From positions 1 through 64,000 of the IMG/VR virus record IMGVR_UViG_3300037852_000046: DNA of 64,000 bases; one strand, 5' to 3'. Source of the DNA: a virus. Under the pieces are notes generated by a model that had not been told where the DNA came from, did not search any database, and saw only the letters and a program-made list of their open reading frames with translations. This document shows positions 1,201-47,633 of this stretch, in pieces; within the stretch, counting starts at the first letter, position 1; each line of letters opens with the position of its first letter. The position numbers and the translations under genes were made by a program.

Positions 1201-3374
1201 TGGCCCGCAAAAAGAAAGAAGAAAAGCACGAAGACCTGCCCGTCATCGAAACGGTCGATGCACGGGCAATTGACGCTGAACGCACCGGGGAAGAGCTGGA
1301 GAATTTCGCAGAGGATATGTCCTCGGATGCCTATATTGAGGCTTGTAAGTTATACCCTAAAATTCAGCGTTGCTTCGAAAATAAACAACAGCAGTCGGAT
1401 TGGATCGAAGAATATTGGAACGTGTACAATGCGCGCCCTGATGAAAACCAGCAATACACCGGGAACTCCCAGTGCTATATCCCCGCTGTCAGGGATGCCA
1501 TCAACGCTCGTTGTAAGCGGACCCTTGCAACTCTTTTCCCCGCGAATTACAAGCACGTCGACGCTGTCGGCCCTGCCTCAGTCACCCCTTTCCCGACGTT
1601 GGCTTTACTGGAACACTACATCCGTAAGACGAATCTGAAAGATATCGTTCGCGCGGATCTGCTCTCGGGCGATGTCTCCGGCCAGTGGCTGCTTTACATC
1701 GACTGGATGCGCACCACGCGCCGCGTCACCGAACTCGTCAAGAAACCGCCTATCGTCGAGACGATGGCCGGCGACGAAGAGGACATGACGATTGAGGAAG
1801 AGTGGGACATCGAGGAGAAGACGGTCGTCGATGAGATGCCGGATATCACGCCAATGGCGGTTGACGATCTGGCAGTCTACCCGCCCACGGTGAACGATAT
1901 TGAGCGCGCGACAGCTACGGCGATTCGTCTGCGCCTGTCGAAGGAATCGGTGGAGCAGTTTATTGAAGAAGGCGTCTTCGTCGGATGGAACGCGAAAGAG
2001 ATCATGGACAATCTGAACGAGCCAGACGGCGGCCGTCAGAAGCGTGTCCCGAATAAACGCCGCACGGCAGATGCGGGCGTGCGCACCGAGGGCACGTACA
2101 AGTACGCGCTGATTTACGAAGTCCATACGAATCTGGAACTGGAAGAAGGCAAGGGCAAAGAGCCCTGCTTTGTCTACTACGCCGGTCCGGAAGTCATTCT
2201 CGGCATCATCCGTAACCCATTCTGGTCGAAGAAGCGCCCGATCATCACAGCACCCGTCGAACGGATTCAGGGAACGATTTACGGGATCTCGCGCGTCGAA
2301 CCGGTCAAATACCTCCAGTGGAATCTTAACGACTACTGGAATATGGGGCAGGACAGCGCGCAGTATGCGCTTTTGCCTATCGTCATGACCGATCCGTTAG
2401 CCAACCCCAATTACCAGAGCATGGTGATGGGGCTCGCCGCTGTGTGGTTGACGAACCCCCAGACGACCCAGTTCGCGCAGTTTCCGGCCATCTATAAAGA
2501 CGCCGTGGCTTTGTGTCAGGCGATCAAGGCGCAGATCAACGAGAGCATGGAAGTCAACGACGCCATGCTCGGCAAGATGCCGGCGGGCCGGAAGAATCAG
2601 GCACAGGCCGCAGCGCAGGCGCAGGAACAGCAGTCGAACATCATCGACCATGCGAAGCGCTACGAGGGTTGCATCCTGAACCCGTTGCTTGAGCGCATGT
2701 TCGAGCTCGACCGCCAGTTCCGCACGAAGGAACTGACCGTAGTGACGATGGGCGAGGTTGGCGCGCGTGCCAAGCAGGAAGAGATTCCGGTGCAGGCCTT
2801 CTCAGAGCGCTATTTCTTCCGCTGGTGCGGCACGGCCTACCAGACCGGTATGCAGCGCATGCAACAGATGATTGCGTGGATGAACGTGCTTCGCGGCATT
2901 CCCCCGCAGCAGCTGGACGGCAGGCGGCTCAATGTTGGTCCAATCCTGGAGATGGGAACCGAACAGATTTTCGGGCCTGAAGTCGGCCCGCGCATCCTGA
3001 TCGACGAGCGCAACCTGTTTCATGTCGAGCCATCAGACGAGAACCTGATGATGCACAACGGCTTGCCGGCGGAAGTGCATCCGGCGGACGACGATCAGCG
3101 GCACATCGCGGAGCATATGCGCGGTGCGACGCTGACCGGCGATCCGGTCGGCCTGTTCCGCGCGCACATCCAGCAGCATCAGCAGGCCATGAATCAGAAG
3201 ATGCAAAAGGCGCTTGGTCCTCCGCAAGGGCAGCAAGGCGTACCGGGCGGCGCAGGGCCAGGCGTGGCAGGTACTCCGCGCCCCGGCGCGCAACCGGGCC
3301 AGCCTCGCCCGCAAGGGCCCGCCGGAATGATTCATCCGGACACGGTTCAGGATGCACAAATGGGGCCTCGCTAA
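1200..3374 (+). CDS. Portal protein (copy A)
   Basis: A 724-residue protein directly downstream of the terminase cassette, in the position and size range of P22- and N4-type podovirus portals. Portals form the dodecameric ring at one head vertex through which DNA is packaged and ejected, and which carries the short tail. It has a charged N-terminus (MARKKKEE), a mixed alpha/beta core, and a Gln/Pro/Gly-rich tail from about residue 660. The copy B protein at 40610-42790 is almost identical beyond residue 230, with most changes in the first 220 residues. Function rests on size, order and general character; no single catalytic motif proves it. Confidence 0.85.
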   Translation: MARKKKEEKHEDLPVIETVDARAIDAERTGEELENFAEDMSSDAYIEACKLYPKIQRCFENKQQQSDWIEEYWNVYNARPDENQQYTGNSQCYIPAVRDAINARCKRTLATLFPANYKHVDAVGPASVTPFPTLALLEHYIRKTNLKDIVRADLLSGDVSGQWLLYIDWMRTTRRVTELVKKPPIVETMAGDEEDMTIEEEWDIEEKTVVDEMPDITPMAVDDLAVYPPTVNDIERATATAIRLRLSKESVEQFIEEGVFVGWNAKEIMDNLNEPDGGRQKRVPNKRRTADAGVRTEGTYKYALIYEVHTNLELEEGKGKEPCFVYYAGPEVILGIIRNPFWSKKRPIITAPVERIQGTIYGISRVEPVKYLQWNLNDYWNMGQDSAQYALLPIVMTDPLANPNYQSMVMGLAAVWLTNPQTTQFAQFPAIYKDAVALCQAIKAQINESMEVNDAMLGKMPAGRKNQAQAAAQAQEQQSNIIDHAKRYEGCILNPLLERMFELDRQFRTKELTVVTMGEVGARAKQEEIPVQAFSERYFFRWCGTAYQTGMQRMQQMIAWMNVLRGIPPQQLDGRRLNVGPILEMGTEQIFGPEVGPRILIDERNLFHVEPSDENLMMHNGLPAEVHPADDDQRHIAEHMRGATLTGDPVGLFRAHIQQHQQAMNQKMQKALGPPQGQQGVPGGAGPGVAGTPRPGAQPGQPRPQGPAGMIHPDTVQDAQMGPR

Positions 3375-3703
3375 TGATTGCGCGATCGACGCTATGGGGC
3401 ACTATCCAGTTCGGTGATGAGTTTTACAGGCTCACCGAACTGGAGCAGTGCGCCATCGTCGCGCACGAACAGGGCCATATCCATCACCGGCACACGTGGA
3501 AGCGCCTCGCGCGGCTCGTGACTTTCCGATGGAAGGGTTTCTTCGAGTTCTGCGAAGCGCAGGAACTGGAAGCGGATCGGTACGCCGCGGAACGCGGACA
3601 CGCGGCCGGCCTGATCTCTTTCCTGTTTCGCAGTAACCTGCATGTAAAATCCGCTGGATATCCGACGCATAAACAGCGCATAGAGGCTATCCATGTCCGA
3701 TGA
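3374..3703 (+). CDS. Small M48-like zinc metallopeptidase (copy A)
   Basis: A 109-residue protein with the zinc-metallopeptidase signature HEQGH at residues 31-35 and a second helix ELEAD at 64-68, the spacing expected of a minimal M48 (HtpX/Ste24-like) domain. The end, YPTHKQRIEAIH, resembles the H-P-x-x-x-x-R-I-x-x-L segment that closes M48 domains. There is no membrane helix or signal peptide, unlike HtpX, so it should act in the cytoplasm or in the virion. ATG 3374 overlaps the portal stop (TAATG), and the end overlaps the fibre start by 11 bases. Processing of head or tail proteins is a reasonable guess but not shown. Confidence 0.8.
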   Translation: MIARSTLWGTIQFGDEFYRLTELEQCAIVAHEQGHIHHRHTWKRLARLVTFRWKGFFEFCEAQELEADRYAAERGHAAGLISFLFRSNLHVKSAGYPTHKQRIEAIHVR

Positions 3704-5604: not shown

Positions 5605-6129
5605 GTGCGAAAACTCAGCAAATTGACCGCGATGATTCGCGCGTTGTTTCCCGGCGTTCAGGGGCAAACTCCCGTCATTTCTCCGATGCTCGGCGCACTG
5701 GCGGATCAAACCGGCATTATCAATTCGATTCTGTCCATCAACCCGTGGCAAGCTGCTATCTACAACGCAGCCTCGAACACGACGGGCTTCACGGCTACCC
5801 AGTCGCAGATCATGGGTGCGGAAACAACCGTACTGAACCTGACGGGCACGCTCGGCGCGGGCGCTGCACTTACGCTCCCTACGGCGGCCGTGATGCAGGC
5901 GACGATGACCCCGCAGCAGGCAGTAGTCGGGTCAACTACTACGCTTCGCGTAATCAATAGCTCGGGCGGTGCTTTCTCCTGGACAGTTACTACGGCCACT
6001 GGATGGACGCTTAACGGAACCATGACGGTAGCGCAAAATACCTGGCGCGATTTCATCGTGACGATCACGGCTGTCGGGGCTACGCCGACGATGACGCTTC
6101 AGGCGATCGGCACTGGCACGCAATCGTAA
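5605..6129 (+). CDS. Putative capsid decoration / head protein with LFPG N-terminus (copy A)
   Basis: GTG 5605 is chosen because AGGAG lies eight bases upstream and the same start is conserved in copy B. The 174-residue product opens with a basic amphipathic segment ending in LFPGV (residues 14-18), followed by a Thr/Val/Ala-rich, beta-predicted body (GAGAALTLPTAAVMQATMTP, then GWTLNGTMTV). Lying first in a promoter-driven unit with scaffold and capsid genes suggests a head decoration or stabilising protein. No family is recognised. Confidence 0.7.
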   Translation: MRKLSKLTAMIRALFPGVQGQTPVISPMLGALADQTGIINSILSINPWQAAIYNAASNTTGFTATQSQIMGAETTVLNLTGTLGAGAALTLPTAAVMQATMTPQQAVVGSTTTLRVINSSGGAFSWTVTTATGWTLNGTMTVAQNTWRDFIVTITAVGATPTMTLQAIGTGTQS

Positions 6130-6138
6130 GGAATGACA

Positions 6139-6864
6139 ATGAACAAGCTGCTTAAAAAGCTGCTCGGCCTTCTTTTCCCGGGGATTGACGGCGATGATAC
6201 TGATGTTGATCCTCCTGAACTTCCTGAGTCACCTGATCCCGATGGTGATGATCCTGATCTTGATCTTGACCTTGATCTGCCTGACGATACTCCTGCACGC
6301 GCCGCCCCGCGCCGTGACGATTCTGGTGAGCGCCTGGCTCGGCTGGAAGCTGAAGTCTCGGCAGCGAAGCGTTATGCGGATGAAGTCAAATCTCGCCAGC
6401 CCGCTCCGGTAGACAGCGAGTTCCAGCGGGAAGAGGAAAAGCTTCGCAATCCGGAAACGACGGAACTGGAGCGCTGGCAGATCCAGTCAAATCGCACTCT
6501 ACGGGAAGCGAAAGCCGAAGCGCGCCAGGCGAGGCTTGAAGCGGCCGACATGATCGACCGCACGCGGTTCGAGTCGAAGAATTCGACCGACCCGCGCCGC
6601 GCGAAGTATGCGGAGCGCGTGGAAGAGGCGATCCAGCAGGAGCGTGCGCAGGGGCGCAACGCGTCGCGCGAGGCTGTCTACTTCTACATGCTTGGCAAGG
6701 ATATCGCAGAGGGCAAGCTCAAAGCGAAGGCGAAACCGGCATCGAAAACGCCGGACGTGCCGCGCGGCAGGTCTCCGGGGGTTCGGAGCGACGTTCAGGG
6801 CCGGGGCAGGCCCACGACTGATAAAGACAAGCTTCGTGCTCGTCTCGAAAATCAGAATATTTAA
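6139..6864 (+). CDS. Capsid scaffolding protein (copy A)
   Basis: A highly charged protein directly before the capsid gene, the classic scaffold position. It opens with a Leu/Lys amphipathic segment ending in LFPGI, then an Asp/Pro-rich acidic tract (residues 18-50), a long charged helical region with coiled-coil character (about 60-200), and a basic Arg/Lys/Pro-rich C-terminus like the coat-binding ends of scaffolds. I prefer ATG 6139 over the in-frame ATG 6133 because copy B has only the equivalent of 6139. Scaffolds direct procapsid assembly and are lost or cleaved on maturation. Confidence 0.8.
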   Translation: MNKLLKKLLGLLFPGIDGDDTDVDPPELPESPDPDGDDPDLDLDLDLPDDTPARAAPRRDDSGERLARLEAEVSAAKRYADEVKSRQPAPVDSEFQREEEKLRNPETTELERWQIQSNRTLREAKAEARQARLEAADMIDRTRFESKNSTDPRRAKYAERVEEAIQQERAQGRNASREAVYFYMLGKDIAEGKLKAKAKPASKTPDVPRGRSPGVRSDVQGRGRPTTDKDKLRARLENQNI

Positions 6865-6879
6865 CCACGAGAGGAAACC

Positions 6880-8301
6880 ATGTCCTACCTCAAGAAACTG
6901 GGCCTCATGTGGGCCTCGCTGTTCCCCGGCGTGACAAACCAGTCAACCAGTTTTACGGCTGACGTTGAAGCATACATTCAGGAAGAAGTCGAGCCACTGG
7001 CCCGCCGGCAACTGGTCGCATACCAGTTCGGCAAGCCGCTCAAGCTCGATACGAATCGCGGCACGACCTACACGGCTTCGCGCTACCAGCGTCTTCCGCT
7101 GCCGTTCGCGCCGTTGCAGGAAGGCGTCGCGCCCCCCGGCGAGGCGATGGCGCTGCAACAGGTCTCGGCGACCGCGCAGCAATGGGGCGATCGCGTCATC
7201 ATCACCGACGTGGCGAACCTGACCATCAAGCACCCGCTCTTCCAGCAGGCCTGCGAACTGGTCGCGCTTCAGCTTCCGGAAACGCTCGAACGCAACACGA
7301 TGAATACGCTGATGGCGGCCACGCAGGTGAACTTCGCCAACGGCAAAACGTCGCGCGCCAACCTGCTCGCCACCGATGTCATGACGCCGCACGAGAACAA
7401 CCGCATTGTCGGAACGTTCCTGACCTATGGCGTTCCGCGCTTCATGGGCGACGAGCGGGAAGACATGATGATCGAGGCGGGCGCGTATCGCGATCCATCG
7501 AAGTCGCCGGCCGTGATGCAGCACTACATCGGCCTGATTCACCCGCTGTCGGCGCAGGATATGCGCGAGAACACGACCGTGGCCAATGCCTGGTCGTACA
7601 GCGACATCAACCGCCTGTACAACAACGAACTCGGCCCGTTTGGCGGCACGCGCTTTGTCGAATCGAACATGATTCCGTTCTTCACGGGCGTGGCTGCGAT
7701 CCAGGGCACGGCTTCGGCTTCGGGCGGCACGCTCGCGACGAACGCCGGTTACCAGATCATCGTAACCGCTTCGCCGGCGCAGACTTCGGTTGAACAGCAG
7801 ATCTACCAGGTGTCGAATGCGATCTCGGTTACTGGCCCGACTGGTTCTATCAGCGTTGTCCTGCCCCAACTGGCCGGCTACGTGTTCAACATCTACATCG
7901 GCACGTCGGCCACGCCGTCCAACCTTGCAACCGCAATCGGTCTCGGCGTTCCGGCTACCGGCCCCCTGGCCGGCCAGGCAACGCAGCTTCTGCCGAACCA
8001 AACTGTCACCCTGACAGGCATCGGCGTCGCGCAAACGCCGCCGGCCGCTCCGGCCACGGGCGTTTCAGTATTCCCGACGATATACATCGGCAATCACTCG
8101 TACGGTCAGGTGCTGCTCGAAAACCCCGAGTTTCACTATCTGACGGGCCCTGACAAGTCAGATCCGCTGAATCAGACGCGCGTGGTAAGCTGGAAAGTGT
8201 TCTACGGCTCGATCATCCTCAACCAGGCGTTTTTGGCTCGCGTTGAAGCCGGTTCTGCCTTCAGCACGACGTTCTCCGCCGGCACTGTGACAACCCCGTA
8301 A
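6880..8301 (+). CDS. Major capsid protein (N4-gp56-like) (copy A)
   Basis: A 473-residue protein with a good ribosome binding site (GAGAGGAAACC), positioned after the scaffold. The N-terminus carries LFPGV (residues 14-18). The E-loop/spine-like middle and the end (SWKVFYGSIILNQAFLARVE) resemble the N4-gp56 capsid family, which has the HK97 fold. About residues 270-395 form a Thr/Ala/Gly-rich, beta-type insertion, possibly an Ig-like or surface domain. I count six differences from the copy B protein, by far the strongest conservation in the window. Confidence 0.82.
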   Translation: MSYLKKLGLMWASLFPGVTNQSTSFTADVEAYIQEEVEPLARRQLVAYQFGKPLKLDTNRGTTYTASRYQRLPLPFAPLQEGVAPPGEAMALQQVSATAQQWGDRVIITDVANLTIKHPLFQQACELVALQLPETLERNTMNTLMAATQVNFANGKTSRANLLATDVMTPHENNRIVGTFLTYGVPRFMGDEREDMMIEAGAYRDPSKSPAVMQHYIGLIHPLSAQDMRENTTVANAWSYSDINRLYNNELGPFGGTRFVESNMIPFFTGVAAIQGTASASGGTLATNAGYQIIVTASPAQTSVEQQIYQVSNAISVTGPTGSISVVLPQLAGYVFNIYIGTSATPSNLATAIGLGVPATGPLAGQATQLLPNQTVTLTGIGVAQTPPAAPATGVSVFPTIYIGNHSYGQVLLENPEFHYLTGPDKSDPLNQTRVVSWKVFYGSIILNQAFLARVEAGSAFSTTFSAGTVTTP

Positions 8302-40628: not shown

Positions 40629-42790
40629 AAAAGAAAGAAGAATTTGAGGACCAGCCGGTTATTGAGACCGTGGGTTCGCGCGTCATCGACGCGGAACGCC
40701 TTGATGAAAAGCTGGAAAATTTCGCGGAAGACCTCGGCTCAGACGCGATGATCGAAGCGGCCAAGTTGTACCCGAAAATTCAGAAGAGCTACGAGAACAA
40801 GCAACAGCAGTCCGACCGCGTGGAAGAATGCTGGAACATCTTTAATGCAATTCCCGATGAGAATCAGCAGTATACCGGAAATTCGCAATGTTATGTTCCA
40901 ATAGTCAGAGATTGCATCAATGCACGTTGTAAACGCACTCTCGCTACTCTCTTTCCCGCCAATTACAAGCACGTAGACGCCATTGGACCTTCCAGCGTTA
41001 CGCCGTTTCCTACACTCGCCCTGCTCGAACACTACATCCGAAAGACGAATCTGAAGGATATCGTTCGCGCGGATCTGCTTTCGGGCGATGTAACCGGCCA
41101 GTGGCTGCTTTACGTGGACTGGATGCGTACGACACGGCGAATCACTGAGCTTGTAAAGAAGCCACCGATTGTCGAGACCCTGTCGGGCGAGGAAGAGGAC
41201 GTTACGATCGAAGAAGAATGGGATGTTGAAGAAAAGACGATCGTTGACGAAATGCCGGACATTACCCCGATGGCCGTTGACGATCTCGCGGTCTACCCCC
41301 CTACAGTGAACGACATCGAGAAGGCTACGGCCACGGCGATTCGTCTGCGCCTGTCGAAGGAATCCGTCGAGCAGTTCATTGAAGAAGGTGTCTTCGTCGG
41401 CTGGAACGCGAAAGAGATCATGGACAATCTGAACGAGCCGGACGGCGGCCGCCAGAAACGCGTCCCGAACAAGCGCCGCACGGCAGATGCCGGCGTGCGC
41501 ACCGAGGGCACGTACAAGTACGCGCTGATTTACGAAGTCCATACGAATCTGGAACTGGAAGAAGGCAAGGGCAAAGAGCCTTGTTTTGTCTATTACGCCG
41601 GCCCGGAAGTCATTCTCGGTATCATCCGAAACCCGTTCTGGTCGAAGAAGCGCCCCATCATTACGGCACCCGTTGAGCGGATTCAGGGAACGATTTACGG
41701 GATCTCGCGTGTCGAACCCGTGAAGTACCTCCAGTGGAACGTGAACGATTTCTTCAACATGGGGATGGATAGCGCTCAATACGCGCTTTTGCCTATCGTC
41801 ATGACCGATCCGTTAGCCAACCCCAATTACCAGAGTATGGTGATGGGGCTAGCCGCTGTGTGGCTCACGAACCCGCAAACAACACAATTCGCGCAGTTCC
41901 CGGCGATATACAAAGATTCCATCGCGCTTTGTAATGCAATCAAGGCGCAGATCAAAGAATCGATGGATGTCAATGACGCGATGCTTGGGACCCTCCCCCC
42001 AGGCAGGAAGAATCAGGCGCAGGCCGCAGCGCAGGCGCAGGAGCAACAGTCGAATATCATCGACCACGCGAAGCGTTACGAAGGTTGCATTTTGAACCCG
42101 TTGCTGGAACGCATGTTTGAGCTCGACCGTCAGTTTCGTACGAAGGAACTTACGGTCGTCACGATGGGCGAAGTCGGAGCTCGAGCAAAACAGGAAGAAA
42201 TCCCGGTTCAGGCATTCAGCGAGCGCTACTTCTTCCGCTGGTGTGGCACAGCCTATCAGACCGGAATGCAGCGCATGCAGCAGATGATTGCGTGGATGAA
42301 CGTGCTGCGCGGCATCCCCCCGCAGCAACTGGACGGCCGGCGGCTCAACGTCGGCCCGATTCTGGAGATGGGCACTGAGCAGATTTTCGGGCCGGAAGTC
42401 GGCCCGCGTATCCTGATCGATGAGCGCAATCTGTTCCACGTTGAGCCGTCAGACGAGAACCTGATGATGCACAACGGTTTGCCAGCGGAAGTGCATCCGG
42501 CGGATGACGATCAGCGGCACATCGCGGAGCATATGCGCGGTGCGACGCTGACCGGCGATCCGGTCGGCCTGTTCCGCGCGCACATCCAGCAACATCAGCA
42601 GGCCATGAACCAGAAGATGCAAAAGGCACTTGGGCCGCCGCAAGGGCAACAGGGCATACCCGGCGGCGCGGGCCCAGGCGTGGCCGGCACCCCGCGACCG
42701 GGCGCACAACCCGGCCAGCCTCGCCCGCAAGGCCCGCCCGGTATGGTGAATCCGGATCAGGTTCAGGATGCACAGATGGGGCCGCGCTAA
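40610..42790 (+). CDS. Portal protein (copy B)
   Basis: Start placed at ATG 40610 (MARKAVKKKEE), which aligns with the copy A start; the in-frame ATG 40583 would lie inside the HNH gene. It matches 1200-3374 closely, most changes falling in the first 220 residues and around 445-475. It keeps the Gln/Pro/Gly-rich tail and NPDQVQDAQMGPR-like end. Confidence 0.85.
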   Translation: MARKAVKKKEEFEDQPVIETVGSRVIDAERLDEKLENFAEDLGSDAMIEAAKLYPKIQKSYENKQQQSDRVEECWNIFNAIPDENQQYTGNSQCYVPIVRDCINARCKRTLATLFPANYKHVDAIGPSSVTPFPTLALLEHYIRKTNLKDIVRADLLSGDVTGQWLLYVDWMRTTRRITELVKKPPIVETLSGEEEDVTIEEEWDVEEKTIVDEMPDITPMAVDDLAVYPPTVNDIEKATATAIRLRLSKESVEQFIEEGVFVGWNAKEIMDNLNEPDGGRQKRVPNKRRTADAGVRTEGTYKYALIYEVHTNLELEEGKGKEPCFVYYAGPEVILGIIRNPFWSKKRPIITAPVERIQGTIYGISRVEPVKYLQWNVNDFFNMGMDSAQYALLPIVMTDPLANPNYQSMVMGLAAVWLTNPQTTQFAQFPAIYKDSIALCNAIKAQIKESMDVNDAMLGTLPPGRKNQAQAAAQAQEQQSNIIDHAKRYEGCILNPLLERMFELDRQFRTKELTVVTMGEVGARAKQEEIPVQAFSERYFFRWCGTAYQTGMQRMQQMIAWMNVLRGIPPQQLDGRRLNVGPILEMGTEQIFGPEVGPRILIDERNLFHVEPSDENLMMHNGLPAEVHPADDDQRHIAEHMRGATLTGDPVGLFRAHIQQHQQAMNQKMQKALGPPQGQQGIPGGAGPGVAGTPRPGAQPGQPRPQGPPGMVNPDQVQDAQMGPR

Positions 42791-43119
42791 TGATTGCACG
42801 TTCGACGCTATGGGGCACTATCCAGTTCGGTGATGAGTTTTACAGGCTCACCGAACTGGAGCAGTGCGCCATCGTTGCACATGAGAAGGGCCACATCCAC
42901 CACCGGCACGCATGGAAACGCCTCGCGCGTCTCGTGACTTTCAGATGGAAAGGCTTTTTCGAGATGTGCGAAGCGCAGGAACTGGAAGCGGACCGCTACG
43001 CCGTGGCGCGCGGCCATGTGCCCGGACTGATCTCTTTCCTGCTTCGCAGTAACCTGCATGTAAAATCGGCCGGATATCCGACGCACAAACAGCGCATAGA
43101 GGCTATCCATGTCCGATGA
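42790..43119 (+). CDS. Small M48-like zinc metallopeptidase (copy B)
   Basis: Same length and overlaps as 3374-3703. The zinc motif reads HEKGH, and ELEADRYA and YPTHKQRIEAIH are kept while surrounding residues vary. Retained ligands in two diverged copies argue for an active enzyme. Confidence 0.8.
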   Translation: MIARSTLWGTIQFGDEFYRLTELEQCAIVAHEKGHIHHRHAWKRLARLVTFRWKGFFEMCEAQELEADRYAVARGHVPGLISFLLRSNLHVKSAGYPTHKQRIEAIHVR

Positions 43120-44945: not shown

Positions 44946-45452
44946 GTGCGAAAACTCAAACTGGCCGAAGTGATCGGCGCTCTTTTCCCCGCGATCCAGG
45001 GCCAGACTCCTGTTATCGCTGACAACGGCTCCATGCCTGATCAGGTCGGCCTGATCAATGCGCTGATTTCGGTCAACCCGTGGCCGGCGACGGCATACAA
45101 CCTCGACACGCACACGGGTGCTTTTACCGCCACGCAGCAGCAGGTCATGGCGGCGGAGAATACCTTTCTCGCCCTGTCCCTCACCGGCGCGGCGGCGGTT
45201 ACTCTGCCGACTGTAGCTACGCTCCTTTCGACGATGACTCCGCAGCAAGCGGTAGTCGGGTCAACGACCAACCTTCGCATCATTAACGCCACCGGCTTTA
45301 CTGCTACCGTCACGACCAACACTGGCTGGACGTTAAATGGCACGATGACGGTCGCCACTACCGTGTGGCGCGACTTCGTGATTCAGATCACGGCCACAGG
45401 CGCGACTCCTACGGCGACCATCCAGAATGTCGGCGCTGGCGACGCAACGTAA
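44946..45452 (+). CDS. Putative capsid decoration / head protein (copy B)
   Basis: GTG start with AGGAG upstream, 168 residues, counterpart of 5605-6129. The N-terminal motif reads LFPA (13-16) rather than LFPG. The central TMTPQQAVVGSTT and GWTLNGTMTV parts are shared; other beta stretches differ. Confidence 0.7.
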   Translation: MRKLKLAEVIGALFPAIQGQTPVIADNGSMPDQVGLINALISVNPWPATAYNLDTHTGAFTATQQQVMAAENTFLALSLTGAAAVTLPTVATLLSTMTPQQAVVGSTTNLRIINATGFTATVTTNTGWTLNGTMTVATTVWRDFVIQITATGATPTATIQNVGAGDAT

Positions 45453-45461
45453 GGAACAACA

Positions 45462-46196
45462 ATGAACAAGCTGCTTAAAAAGCTGCTCAAAAAGCTGCTC
45501 GGCCTTCTATTCCCGGGGATTGACGGCGATGACGATAATGTTGATCCTCCTGACGATCCTGACACACCTGATCCCGATAGTGGCGATCCTGATCTTGATC
45601 TCGACCTTGATCTGCCTGACGATCCTCCTCCACGCACCGCCGCGCGTCACGACGATTCTGGTGAGCGCCTGGCTAGGCTGGAAGCTGAAGTCGAAAGGCG
45701 CGGCCGCCTGGCGGCAGAAGCCGCAGCACGCCAGCCCACGGTAGACAGTGAGTTCCAGCGGGAAGAAGAGCGTCTCCGCAATCCGGAAACGACGGAGCTT
45801 GAGCGCTGGCAGATCCAGTCAAACCGCACACTGCGCGAAGCGAAGGCCGAAGCGCGTCAGGCAAGACTCGAAGCGGCCGACATGATCGACCGTACGCGGT
45901 TCGAGTCGAAGAACACGACCGATCCGCGACGCGCGAAGTACGCGGACCGCGTGGAAGAAGCGATACAGCAGGAGCGGAATCAAGGGCGCAACGCGTCGCG
46001 CGAGGCGGTCTACTTCTACCTGCTCGGCAAGGATATCGCGGAAGGCAAGCTTAAAGCGAAGGCAAAACCGGCATCGAAAGCGCCGGACGTGCCGCGCGGC
46101 AGGTCTCCGGGGGTTCGGAGCGACGTACCAGGCCGGGGTCGGCCCACGACTGATCAGGACAAGCGTAGAGCGCGTCTTGAGAATCAGAATATTTAA
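45462..46196 (+). CDS. Capsid scaffolding protein (copy B)
   Basis: A 244-residue counterpart of 6139-6864. The N-terminal Leu/Lys segment has one extra KLLK unit (12-bp duplication near 45474-45497) before LFPGI. The acidic Asp/Pro tract and basic C-terminus are kept; residues 78-95 differ most. Confidence 0.8.
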   Translation: MNKLLKKLLKKLLGLLFPGIDGDDDNVDPPDDPDTPDPDSGDPDLDLDLDLPDDPPPRTAARHDDSGERLARLEAEVERRGRLAAEAAARQPTVDSEFQREEERLRNPETTELERWQIQSNRTLREAKAEARQARLEAADMIDRTRFESKNTTDPRRAKYADRVEEAIQQERNQGRNASREAVYFYLLGKDIAEGKLKAKAKPASKAPDVPRGRSPGVRSDVPGRGRPTTDQDKRRARLENQNI

Positions 46197-46211
46197 CCAC
46201 GAGAGGAAACC

Positions 46212-47633
46212 ATGTCCTACCTCAAGAAACTGGGCCTCATGTGGGCCTCGCTGTTCCCCGGCGTGACAAACCAGTCCACCAGTTTTACGGCGGACGTTGA
46301 AGCGTACATTCAGGAAGAAGTTGAACCGCTCGCGCGCCGCCAACTGGTCGCGTACCAGTTCGGAAAGCCGCTCAAGCTCGATACGAATCGAGGCACGACC
46401 TACACGGCATCGCGCTACCAGCGTTTGCCGTTGCCTTTCGCGCCGTTGCAGGAAGGCGTAGCGCCTCCCGGCGAAGCGATGGCGCTGCAACAGGTCTCCG
46501 CTACCGCGCAGCAATGGGGTGACCGCGTTATCATCACCGACGTGGCGAACCTGACCATCAAGCATCCGCTCTTCCAGCAGGCCTGCGAACTGGTCGCGCT
46601 GCAACTGCCGGAAACGCTGGAGCGCAACACGATGAATACGTTGATGGCGGCCACGCAGGTGAACTACGCCAACGGCAAAACGTCGCGCGCCAACCTGATT
46701 GCAACCGATGTCATGACGCCGCATGAGAACAATCGTATCGTAGGCACGTTCCTGACCTACGGCGTTCCTCGCTTCATGGGCGACGAGCGGGAAGACATGA
46801 TGATCGAAGCGGGCGCGTATCGCGATCCGTCGAAGTCGCCGGCCGTGATGCAGCACTACATCGGCCTGATTCATCCGCTGTCGGCGCAGGACATGCGCGA
46901 GAACACGACCGTGGCTAACGCGTGGTCGTACAGCGACATCAACCGCCTGTACAACAACGAGCTCGGCCCCTTCGGCGGTACGCGCTTCGTCGAGTCGAAC
47001 ATGATTCCCTTCTTCGTCGGCAATGCCGCGATTCAGGGAACGGCCTCGACTTCGGGTGGCACGCTCGCGACGAACGCCGGTTACCAGATCATCGTGACCG
47101 CTTCGCCGGCCCAAACTTCGGTTGAGCAGCAGATTTACCAGGTGTCGAACGCGATCAGCGTCACCGGCCCCACGGGCTCGATCAGCGTCGTACTGCCGCA
47201 GCTTGCCGGCTACGTGTTCAATATCTACATCGGCACGTCGGCCACGCCGTCGAACCTCGCCACGGCCATCGGCCTCGGCGTCCCGGTCACCGGCCCCCTC
47301 GCTGGTCAGGCAACGCAGCTTCTGCCGAACCAGACCGTGACGCTCACGGGCATTGGTGTAGCGCAAACGCCGCCGGCCGCTCCGGCAACGGGCGTTTCAG
47401 TGTTCCCGACTATCTATATCGGCAACCACTCGTACGGTCAGGTGCTGCTCGAAAATCCTGAGTTCCATTACCTGACCGGGCCGGACAAGTCGGACCCGCT
47501 GAACCAGACTCGCGTCGTATCATGGAAAGTATTTTATGGAAGTATTATCCTCAACCAGGCGTTTCTTGCCCGCGTTGAAGCCGGTTCCGCGTTCAGCACG
47601 ACGTTCTCCGCTGGTACTGTGACAACCCCGTAA
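46212..47633 (+). CDS. Major capsid protein (N4-gp56-like) (copy B)
   Basis: 473 residues; I count six differences from 6880-8301 (Phe/Tyr, Leu/Ile, Thr/Val, Val/Asn, Ala/Thr and Ala/Val), four of them near or in the beta-rich insertion. Codons have diverged widely, so protein conservation reflects selection rather than recent copying. Confidence 0.82.
   Translation: MSYLKKLGLMWASLFPGVTNQSTSFTADVEAYIQEEVEPLARRQLVAYQFGKPLKLDTNRGTTYTASRYQRLPLPFAPLQEGVAPPGEAMALQQVSATAQQWGDRVIITDVANLTIKHPLFQQACELVALQLPETLERNTMNTLMAATQVNYANGKTSRANLIATDVMTPHENNRIVGTFLTYGVPRFMGDEREDMMIEAGAYRDPSKSPAVMQHYIGLIHPLSAQDMRENTTVANAWSYSDINRLYNNELGPFGGTRFVESNMIPFFVGNAAIQGTASTSGGTLATNAGYQIIVTASPAQTSVEQQIYQVSNAISVTGPTGSISVVLPQLAGYVFNIYIGTSATPSNLATAIGLGVPVTGPLAGQATQLLPNQTVTLTGIGVAQTPPAAPATGVSVFPTIYIGNHSYGQVLLENPEFHYLTGPDKSDPLNQTRVVSWKVFYGSIILNQAFLARVEAGSAFSTTFSAGTVTTP

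Follow-up and report, generated by a model that had tools for sequence, protein, structure and literature searches.

A shared N-terminal peptide on the capsid, scaffold and spike-like proteins of tailed phages, and a small phage-encoded M48 peptidase as its candidate protease

The stretch of DNA analyzed here (the window, 64,000 nucleotides) covers positions 1–64,000 of the IMG/VR virus record IMGVR_UViG_3300037852_000046, which has 79,073 bases. It contains a phage head region in two diverged copies (A and B) that share one orientation, are 78% identical (5605–6940 vs. 44946–46272) and are separated by about 39.3 kb in the record; they may represent prophages in tandem or an assembly that joined two related genomes. 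In each copy, adjacent genes for a spike/decoration-like protein, a putative scaffold and the major capsid protein begin with a common short peptide (the tag), and a gene for a small M48 peptidase, the candidate protease for this tag, is found upstream. The features are listed below, with protein lengths in amino acids (aa) and structural models from AlphaFold2 (AF2).

3374..3703, + strand, copy A: mini M48 (Ste24-like) zinc metallopeptidase, candidate tag protease, 109 aa, HEQGH...ELEAD
5605..6129, + strand, copy A: capsid spike/decoration-like protein, 174 aa, GTG start, N-terminus MRKLSKLTAMIRALFPGV
5605..5655, + strand, copy A: N-terminal tag of the spike protein, MRKLSKLTAMIRALFPG; AF2 helix at residues 2–14, then low-confidence LFPG
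6139..6864, + strand, copy A: putative scaffold, 241 aa, acidic region behind the tag, N-terminus MNKLLKKLLGLLFPGI
6139..6183, + strand, copy A: N-terminal tag of the scaffold, MNKLLKKLLGLLFPG
6880..8301, + strand, copy A: major capsid protein, N4-gp56 family, N-terminus MSYLKKLGLMWASLFPGV
6880..6930, + strand, copy A: N-terminal tag of the capsid protein, MSYLKKLGLMWASLFPG; cut predicted near G17/V18 from the starts of untagged relatives
42790..43119, + strand, copy B: mini M48 metallopeptidase
44946..45452, + strand, copy B: spike/decoration-like protein, tag MRKLKLAEVIGALFPA, N-terminus MRKLKLAEVIGALFPAI
45462..46196, + strand, copy B: scaffold, tag MNKLLKKLLKKLLGLLFPG, N-terminus MNKLLKKLLKKLLGLLFPGI, extra KLLK
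46212..47633, + strand, copy B: major capsid protein, tag MSYLKKLGLMWASLFPG, identical to the capsid tag of copy A

The tag was a short hydrophobic helix ending in LFPG or LFPA, confirming a preliminary description of this DNA that had placed an LFPG tag at the N-termini of three adjacent virion genes and had noted its repetition in the same trio of copy B with an additional KLLK in the scaffold. The same description had called the helix both basic and hydrophobic; its hydrophobic character was consistent, whereas basic residues were not conserved (e.g., MITTQLALLLGLLFPG in locus L044). LFPA in the portal protein and LFPS in a large later open reading frame were both internal, in agreement with the statement that such occurrences lie away from N-termini. 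Scanning both strands of the window recovered the motif soon after a start codon with a ribosome site in exactly six genes, i.e., the trio in its two copies, and the probability of finding LFPG at residues 8–19 of all three copy A proteins was ∼1.5e-12 given their own compositions. A chance motif was ruled out by these two results.

The capsid protein matched TIGR04387 (E 4.9e-37, 127.9 bits vs. a cut-off of 60) and PHROG_1357 (E 1.7e-37), and its score, above the curated cut-off, places it by sequence within the N4-gp56 major capsid family. No library model exceeded the threshold for the scaffold, which is putatively identified from its place directly before the capsid gene and its acidic composition; the gene was conserved across loci. 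The spike protein had a weak match to PHROG_673 (E 6.9e-5), and a Foldseek search with its AF2 model (predicted local distance difference test, pLDDT, 81.7) gave a single significant hit, to the capsid spike of Pseudomonas phage Pa223 (E 2.6e-4); the two superimposed with a VIA Z of 8.8 across 95 residues in the C-terminal domain. In this model the tag was a low-confidence helix (residues 2–14) followed by a disordered LFPG. A sequence search of the PDB gave no match for the spike and weak matches only for the capsid.

Capsid searches of IMG/VR and bacterial genomes yielded 290 usable loci, representing 136 distinct capsid entries, and 86 distinct loci were tagged, all from phages of a Burkholderia-type family. 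The expectation that capsid neighborhoods of related phages would carry the motif was borne out for all three genes together, rather than at random for one of them or for none: a strict form of the motif matched 163 times within the trio vs. three times elsewhere, and the tag was present on the capsid and scaffold, as well as on the spike, apart from losses in some spike proteins. One of the three matches outside the trio was an additional tagged gene (MNRITRLARAIKSLFPSLVGYP, 271 aa) between the spike and scaffold genes at L254:4311. A ribosome site preceded the ATG of the tag in 85 of 86 loci, hence the tag is translated; an alternative internal start at V18, where GTG was present in only 45/86 loci, was rejected. 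In five loci (L037–L040 and L045), an in-frame insertion of ∼96 bases was located inside the capsid tag, so that the N-terminus reads MKYLKKLGLLWA, LTLQTIISFFVNYHKRDSGRTWTLMAYRQLPMY and LFPGVTNQ in succession; the LFPG edge was preserved, and close relatives were devoid of the insertion.

The tag occurred in different versions depending on the genome (FPG, TLG, RPG, LLPG), and those of the capsid and scaffold changed together. Both proteins had LLASFLTLG in L229, AYLFPG in L034 and LLLPG in L101, while L292 combined LFRPG on the capsid with LRPA on the scaffold and FRPA on the spike. In an automatic test, similarity between capsid and scaffold tags was 27.0 within the same genome vs. 23.4 ± 0.5 for shuffled pairs, and untagged phages subjected to the same test showed no excess (9.1 vs. 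10.3); scaffold starts were picked by rule, so that a few may be wrong. A second test, with tag boundaries set by eye, was significant overall and also inside each tag type. Since such permutation tests are inflated by shared ancestry, they are to be read jointly with codon usage: identical capsid and scaffold tags within one genome differed in their synonymous codons (7 of 8 codons in L101; also L229). This indicates that selection acts on the tag peptide, and it rules out recent gene conversion between the neighboring genes. The scaffold tags were amphipathic, with a mean hydrophobic moment of 0.50.

Capsids at 49–58% identity (L103–L106 and most of 69 viral loci) had no tag. Their initial Met aligned with G17 in 17/48 cases, with P16 in 15/48, with F15 in 7/48 and a few residues farther upstream in 9/48, and the scaffolds of these relatives started directly with the acidic region. 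The tag is thus an addition, with its edge close to the natural start of the untagged proteins. In distant capsid relatives, L090 and L096 (Bacteroides phage BS162P1), the capsid protein began with a long stretch of hydrophobic residues (MNTLLFIVVAFVLPFLSGLFFG), which was absent from the scaffold.

The 109-aa protein upstream matched the Pfam family Peptidase_M48 (E 2.2e-4, 21.6 bits vs. a cut-off of 20.3), and its sequence profile matched Ste24p (E 1.5e-7). Its AF2 model (pLDDT 94.6) superimposed on the catalytic domain of ZMPSTE24 (5syt) with a VIA Z of 10.3 and a root-mean-square deviation of 2.0 over 103 residues, and on Ste24p with a Z of 8.5. The residues H31, E32, H35, E64, D68, and R102 were invariant in 19 homologues, most of which were 25–48% identical to the window protein (70% for one). 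Based on sequence and model, the protein is assigned to the M48 family, with a Ste24/M48 catalytic fold, and is predicted to be a zinc-dependent peptidase.

All tagged loci extending to the portal gene (58/58) had the M48 gene upstream of the capsid, directly behind the portal gene in most, and so did six further tagged loci whose stretch stops short of the portal. It was found in 0/33 untagged loci, and six near-complete untagged records had none. In four tagged loci it seemed absent and was expected farther upstream; each of their full records had a same-strand match 6–8 kb ahead of the capsid, with two of the four scoring below the Pfam cut-off. In the record containing the window, S78, S77 (PF03420), S49, and ClpP gave no match at E ≤ 1, and Prp (PF04327) gave no match either, although a Prp supplied by the host could still act. 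No match to the window M48 was obtained by tblastn in INPHARED, and the records in that database thus provide no test of the link between tag and M48.

With a probability of about 0.68, we favor the reading that capsid, scaffold and spike/decoration proteins share an N-terminal propeptide, which the phage mini-M48 removes during procapsid assembly. The preliminary description had suggested a common assembly or targeting tag, such as a docking or protease-recognition peptide; this idea was supported, and its protease-recognition version is favored because the tag is conserved, covaries between capsid and scaffold and is absent in a coordinated manner from untagged relatives, and because there is a matching M48 gene, which that description had not noted. 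Docking or targeting prior to removal is possible and compatible with it. During procapsid formation, the short hydrophobic helix would gather the partner proteins, a shared chaperone or the protease; cleavage by the zinc enzyme would then take place near the G–V bond of LFPGV, with a hydrophobic residue at P1', and the cleaved capsid protein would begin where untagged relatives naturally begin. Peptidases of this clan have a general preference for hydrophobic P1' residues, and it is from this preference, together with the start sites of the untagged relatives, that the bond between G17 and V18 is proposed.

The closest precedent is Staphylococcus phage 80alpha, where the capsid protein gp47 and scaffold gp46 share an N-terminal tag (...NLQ[FH]F, cut before A) that is cleaved by the host cysteine protease Prp (PMC5744158, PMC9405229), which takes off 13 and 14 residues from capsid and scaffold, respectively (PMC5744158). 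A pre-cleaved scaffold was lethal, while an uncleavable scaffold or capsid was viable; the N-terminal sequence of the scaffold was required for assembly, its cleavage was dispensable, and a shared chaperone was suggested (PMC5744158). Both systems have a short N-terminal tag common to the non-homologous capsid and scaffold of one phage. However, the candidate enzyme of the present phages is a phage-encoded M48 zinc metallopeptidase rather than the host Prp, cleavage is predicted, the consensus is LFPG (or TLG/RPG) instead of NLQ(F/L)F followed by A, and a third protein, the spike/decoration protein, is also tagged. A literature search for the NLQLFA motif gave no match.

Gut phages with N4-gp56-like capsids (L087, L342, L349, L393, and others), reached by tblastn from the window capsid, had their own Prp gene, with PF04327 matches over the cut-off, in the order portal, Prp, scaffold, capsid in L087. 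Many of the phages among L342–L441 carried a shared tag on the two proteins, capsid and scaffold, and many encoded Prp upstream. The tags were genome-specific (e.g., LKRLHTLMFDG and LSNLHTLMFDG in L342), their similarity was 25.2 vs. 16.2 ± 0.8 in the automatic test (41 loci), and Prp was upstream in 20 of the 41 stretches, many of which are short. They resemble the tagged phages in having a related capsid, a protease gene upstream of the scaffold and capsid genes, and a tag common to both proteins, but differ in having the cysteine protease Prp and NLQ-LFA/MFD-like tags, the tagged pair compared there being capsid and scaffold. Their Prp genes and shared tags support the combination of tag and protease as a general principle in which the class of the protease is interchangeable.

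In phage T4, the capsid targeting sequence is removed by the prohead protease gp21, a serine protease with the cleavage consensus (L/I)xE. This sequence is a common N-terminal peptide on unrelated internal proteins and takes them into the prohead core (PMC3012670). The likeness lies in one N-terminal peptide on otherwise unrelated proteins; however, the proteins tagged in T4 are internal, and the tags described here end in LFPG/TLG/RPG without (L/I)xE, in a record without S77. As for the enzyme itself, it shares the catalytic domain fold and the HExxH...ExxxD...R residues with the M48A peptidases Ste24p and ZMPSTE24, but has only 109 aa, has no transmembrane domain and is encoded in a phage head module.

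Several points weigh against the proposed propeptide and its removal by M48. The case for the predicted cleavage is built on sequences, models and precedent, and the main job of the tag need not be cleavage: by analogy with 80alpha, with its lethal pre-cleaved scaffold and viable uncleavable proteins, the tag may have an assembly role before it is removed. The presumed site is degenerate (TLG, RPG, FPA, FPS, FPQ; LAR and SLR in scaffolds), which is broad for one enzyme, though the M48 protein has diverged alongside, and the tag was lost or altered in some spike proteins of the tagged clade (L063/L244, L238, L239). On the capsid tree the tag switched state a single time. Tag and M48 were acquired together once, and their co-occurrence, as one event, is not statistically independent support; support comes from M48 retention, covariation and precedent. 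The spike gene, too, was detected only within the tagged clade.

The same observations can be read differently. The tag could be an uncut docking or assembly peptide, the helices of capsid, scaffold and spike binding each other or one pocket (portal, inner face of the capsid, or host chaperone), with the M48 enzyme acting on a substrate elsewhere. Amphipathic scaffold tags and the covariation expected of contacting partners fit this proposal, as does 80alpha, where the scaffold N-terminus is needed and its cleavage is not, and a common chaperone was suggested (PMC5744158); but it leaves unexplained why M48 is present exactly where tags occur and why untagged relatives start near the edge of the tag, and we regard it as unlikely. 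A membrane-targeting helix, placing capsid components on the inner membrane as the site of procapsid assembly and perhaps released by M48, is distinctly less probable still. The tags are hydrophobic, some of them similar to short signal sequences, and relatives of the M48 enzyme, Ste24 among them, are membrane proteases, yet the phage M48 is a catalytic domain only, its 109 aa aligned over their full length, the tag helices are short with no conserved basic residues, and assembly at a membrane would not need the conserved PG edge.

Finally, M48 and tags could be functionally unlinked features hitchhiking in one clade, as their single origin on the capsid tree would allow. This seems very improbable, because the catalytic residues stayed invariant while the remainder of the protein dropped to 25–48% identity in most homologues, the M48 gene stayed beside the portal gene in most loci, and the tags kept covarying while switching type.

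The phage maturation proteases of which we are aware belong to the serine or cysteine classes, and we know of no phage metalloprotease in prohead maturation or tag cleavage; within the sources covered by a limited literature search, no description of an M48 prohead protease was found. If the favored reading is true, phage maturation would gain a new enzyme class, a metallopeptidase matched by a tag that three shell proteins carry. We lean slightly toward the view that a tailed-phage lineage swapped its serine or cysteine maturation protease for a soluble, minimal Ste24-like M48 enzyme and labels all its shell components, from capsid and scaffold to the outer spike, with a single N-terminal propeptide that co-evolves among them. 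Together with the Prp-bearing gut phages, such a lineage would point to tag plus protease as a general and modular principle of building procapsids, with more than one evolutionary origin. The system would offer a testable handle on the question raised by 80alpha, namely why capsid and scaffold share a removable peptide whose cleavage seems dispensable, and in engineered protein shells the tag might be used together with the 109-aa protease as a compact pair for processing.

Two further observations concern other genes of these regions. A fibre-like gene upstream of the trio (L018:2693, L051:2705, and L075:3189) started with a Sec-like signal peptide (MKKILALLLFVSTVALAQNYPSPTY), which is odd for a protein that assembles in the cytosol. 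In Stenotrophomonas phage StenR_269, an annotated homing endonuclease gene was located between the scaffold and capsid genes (L095:3529-3978).
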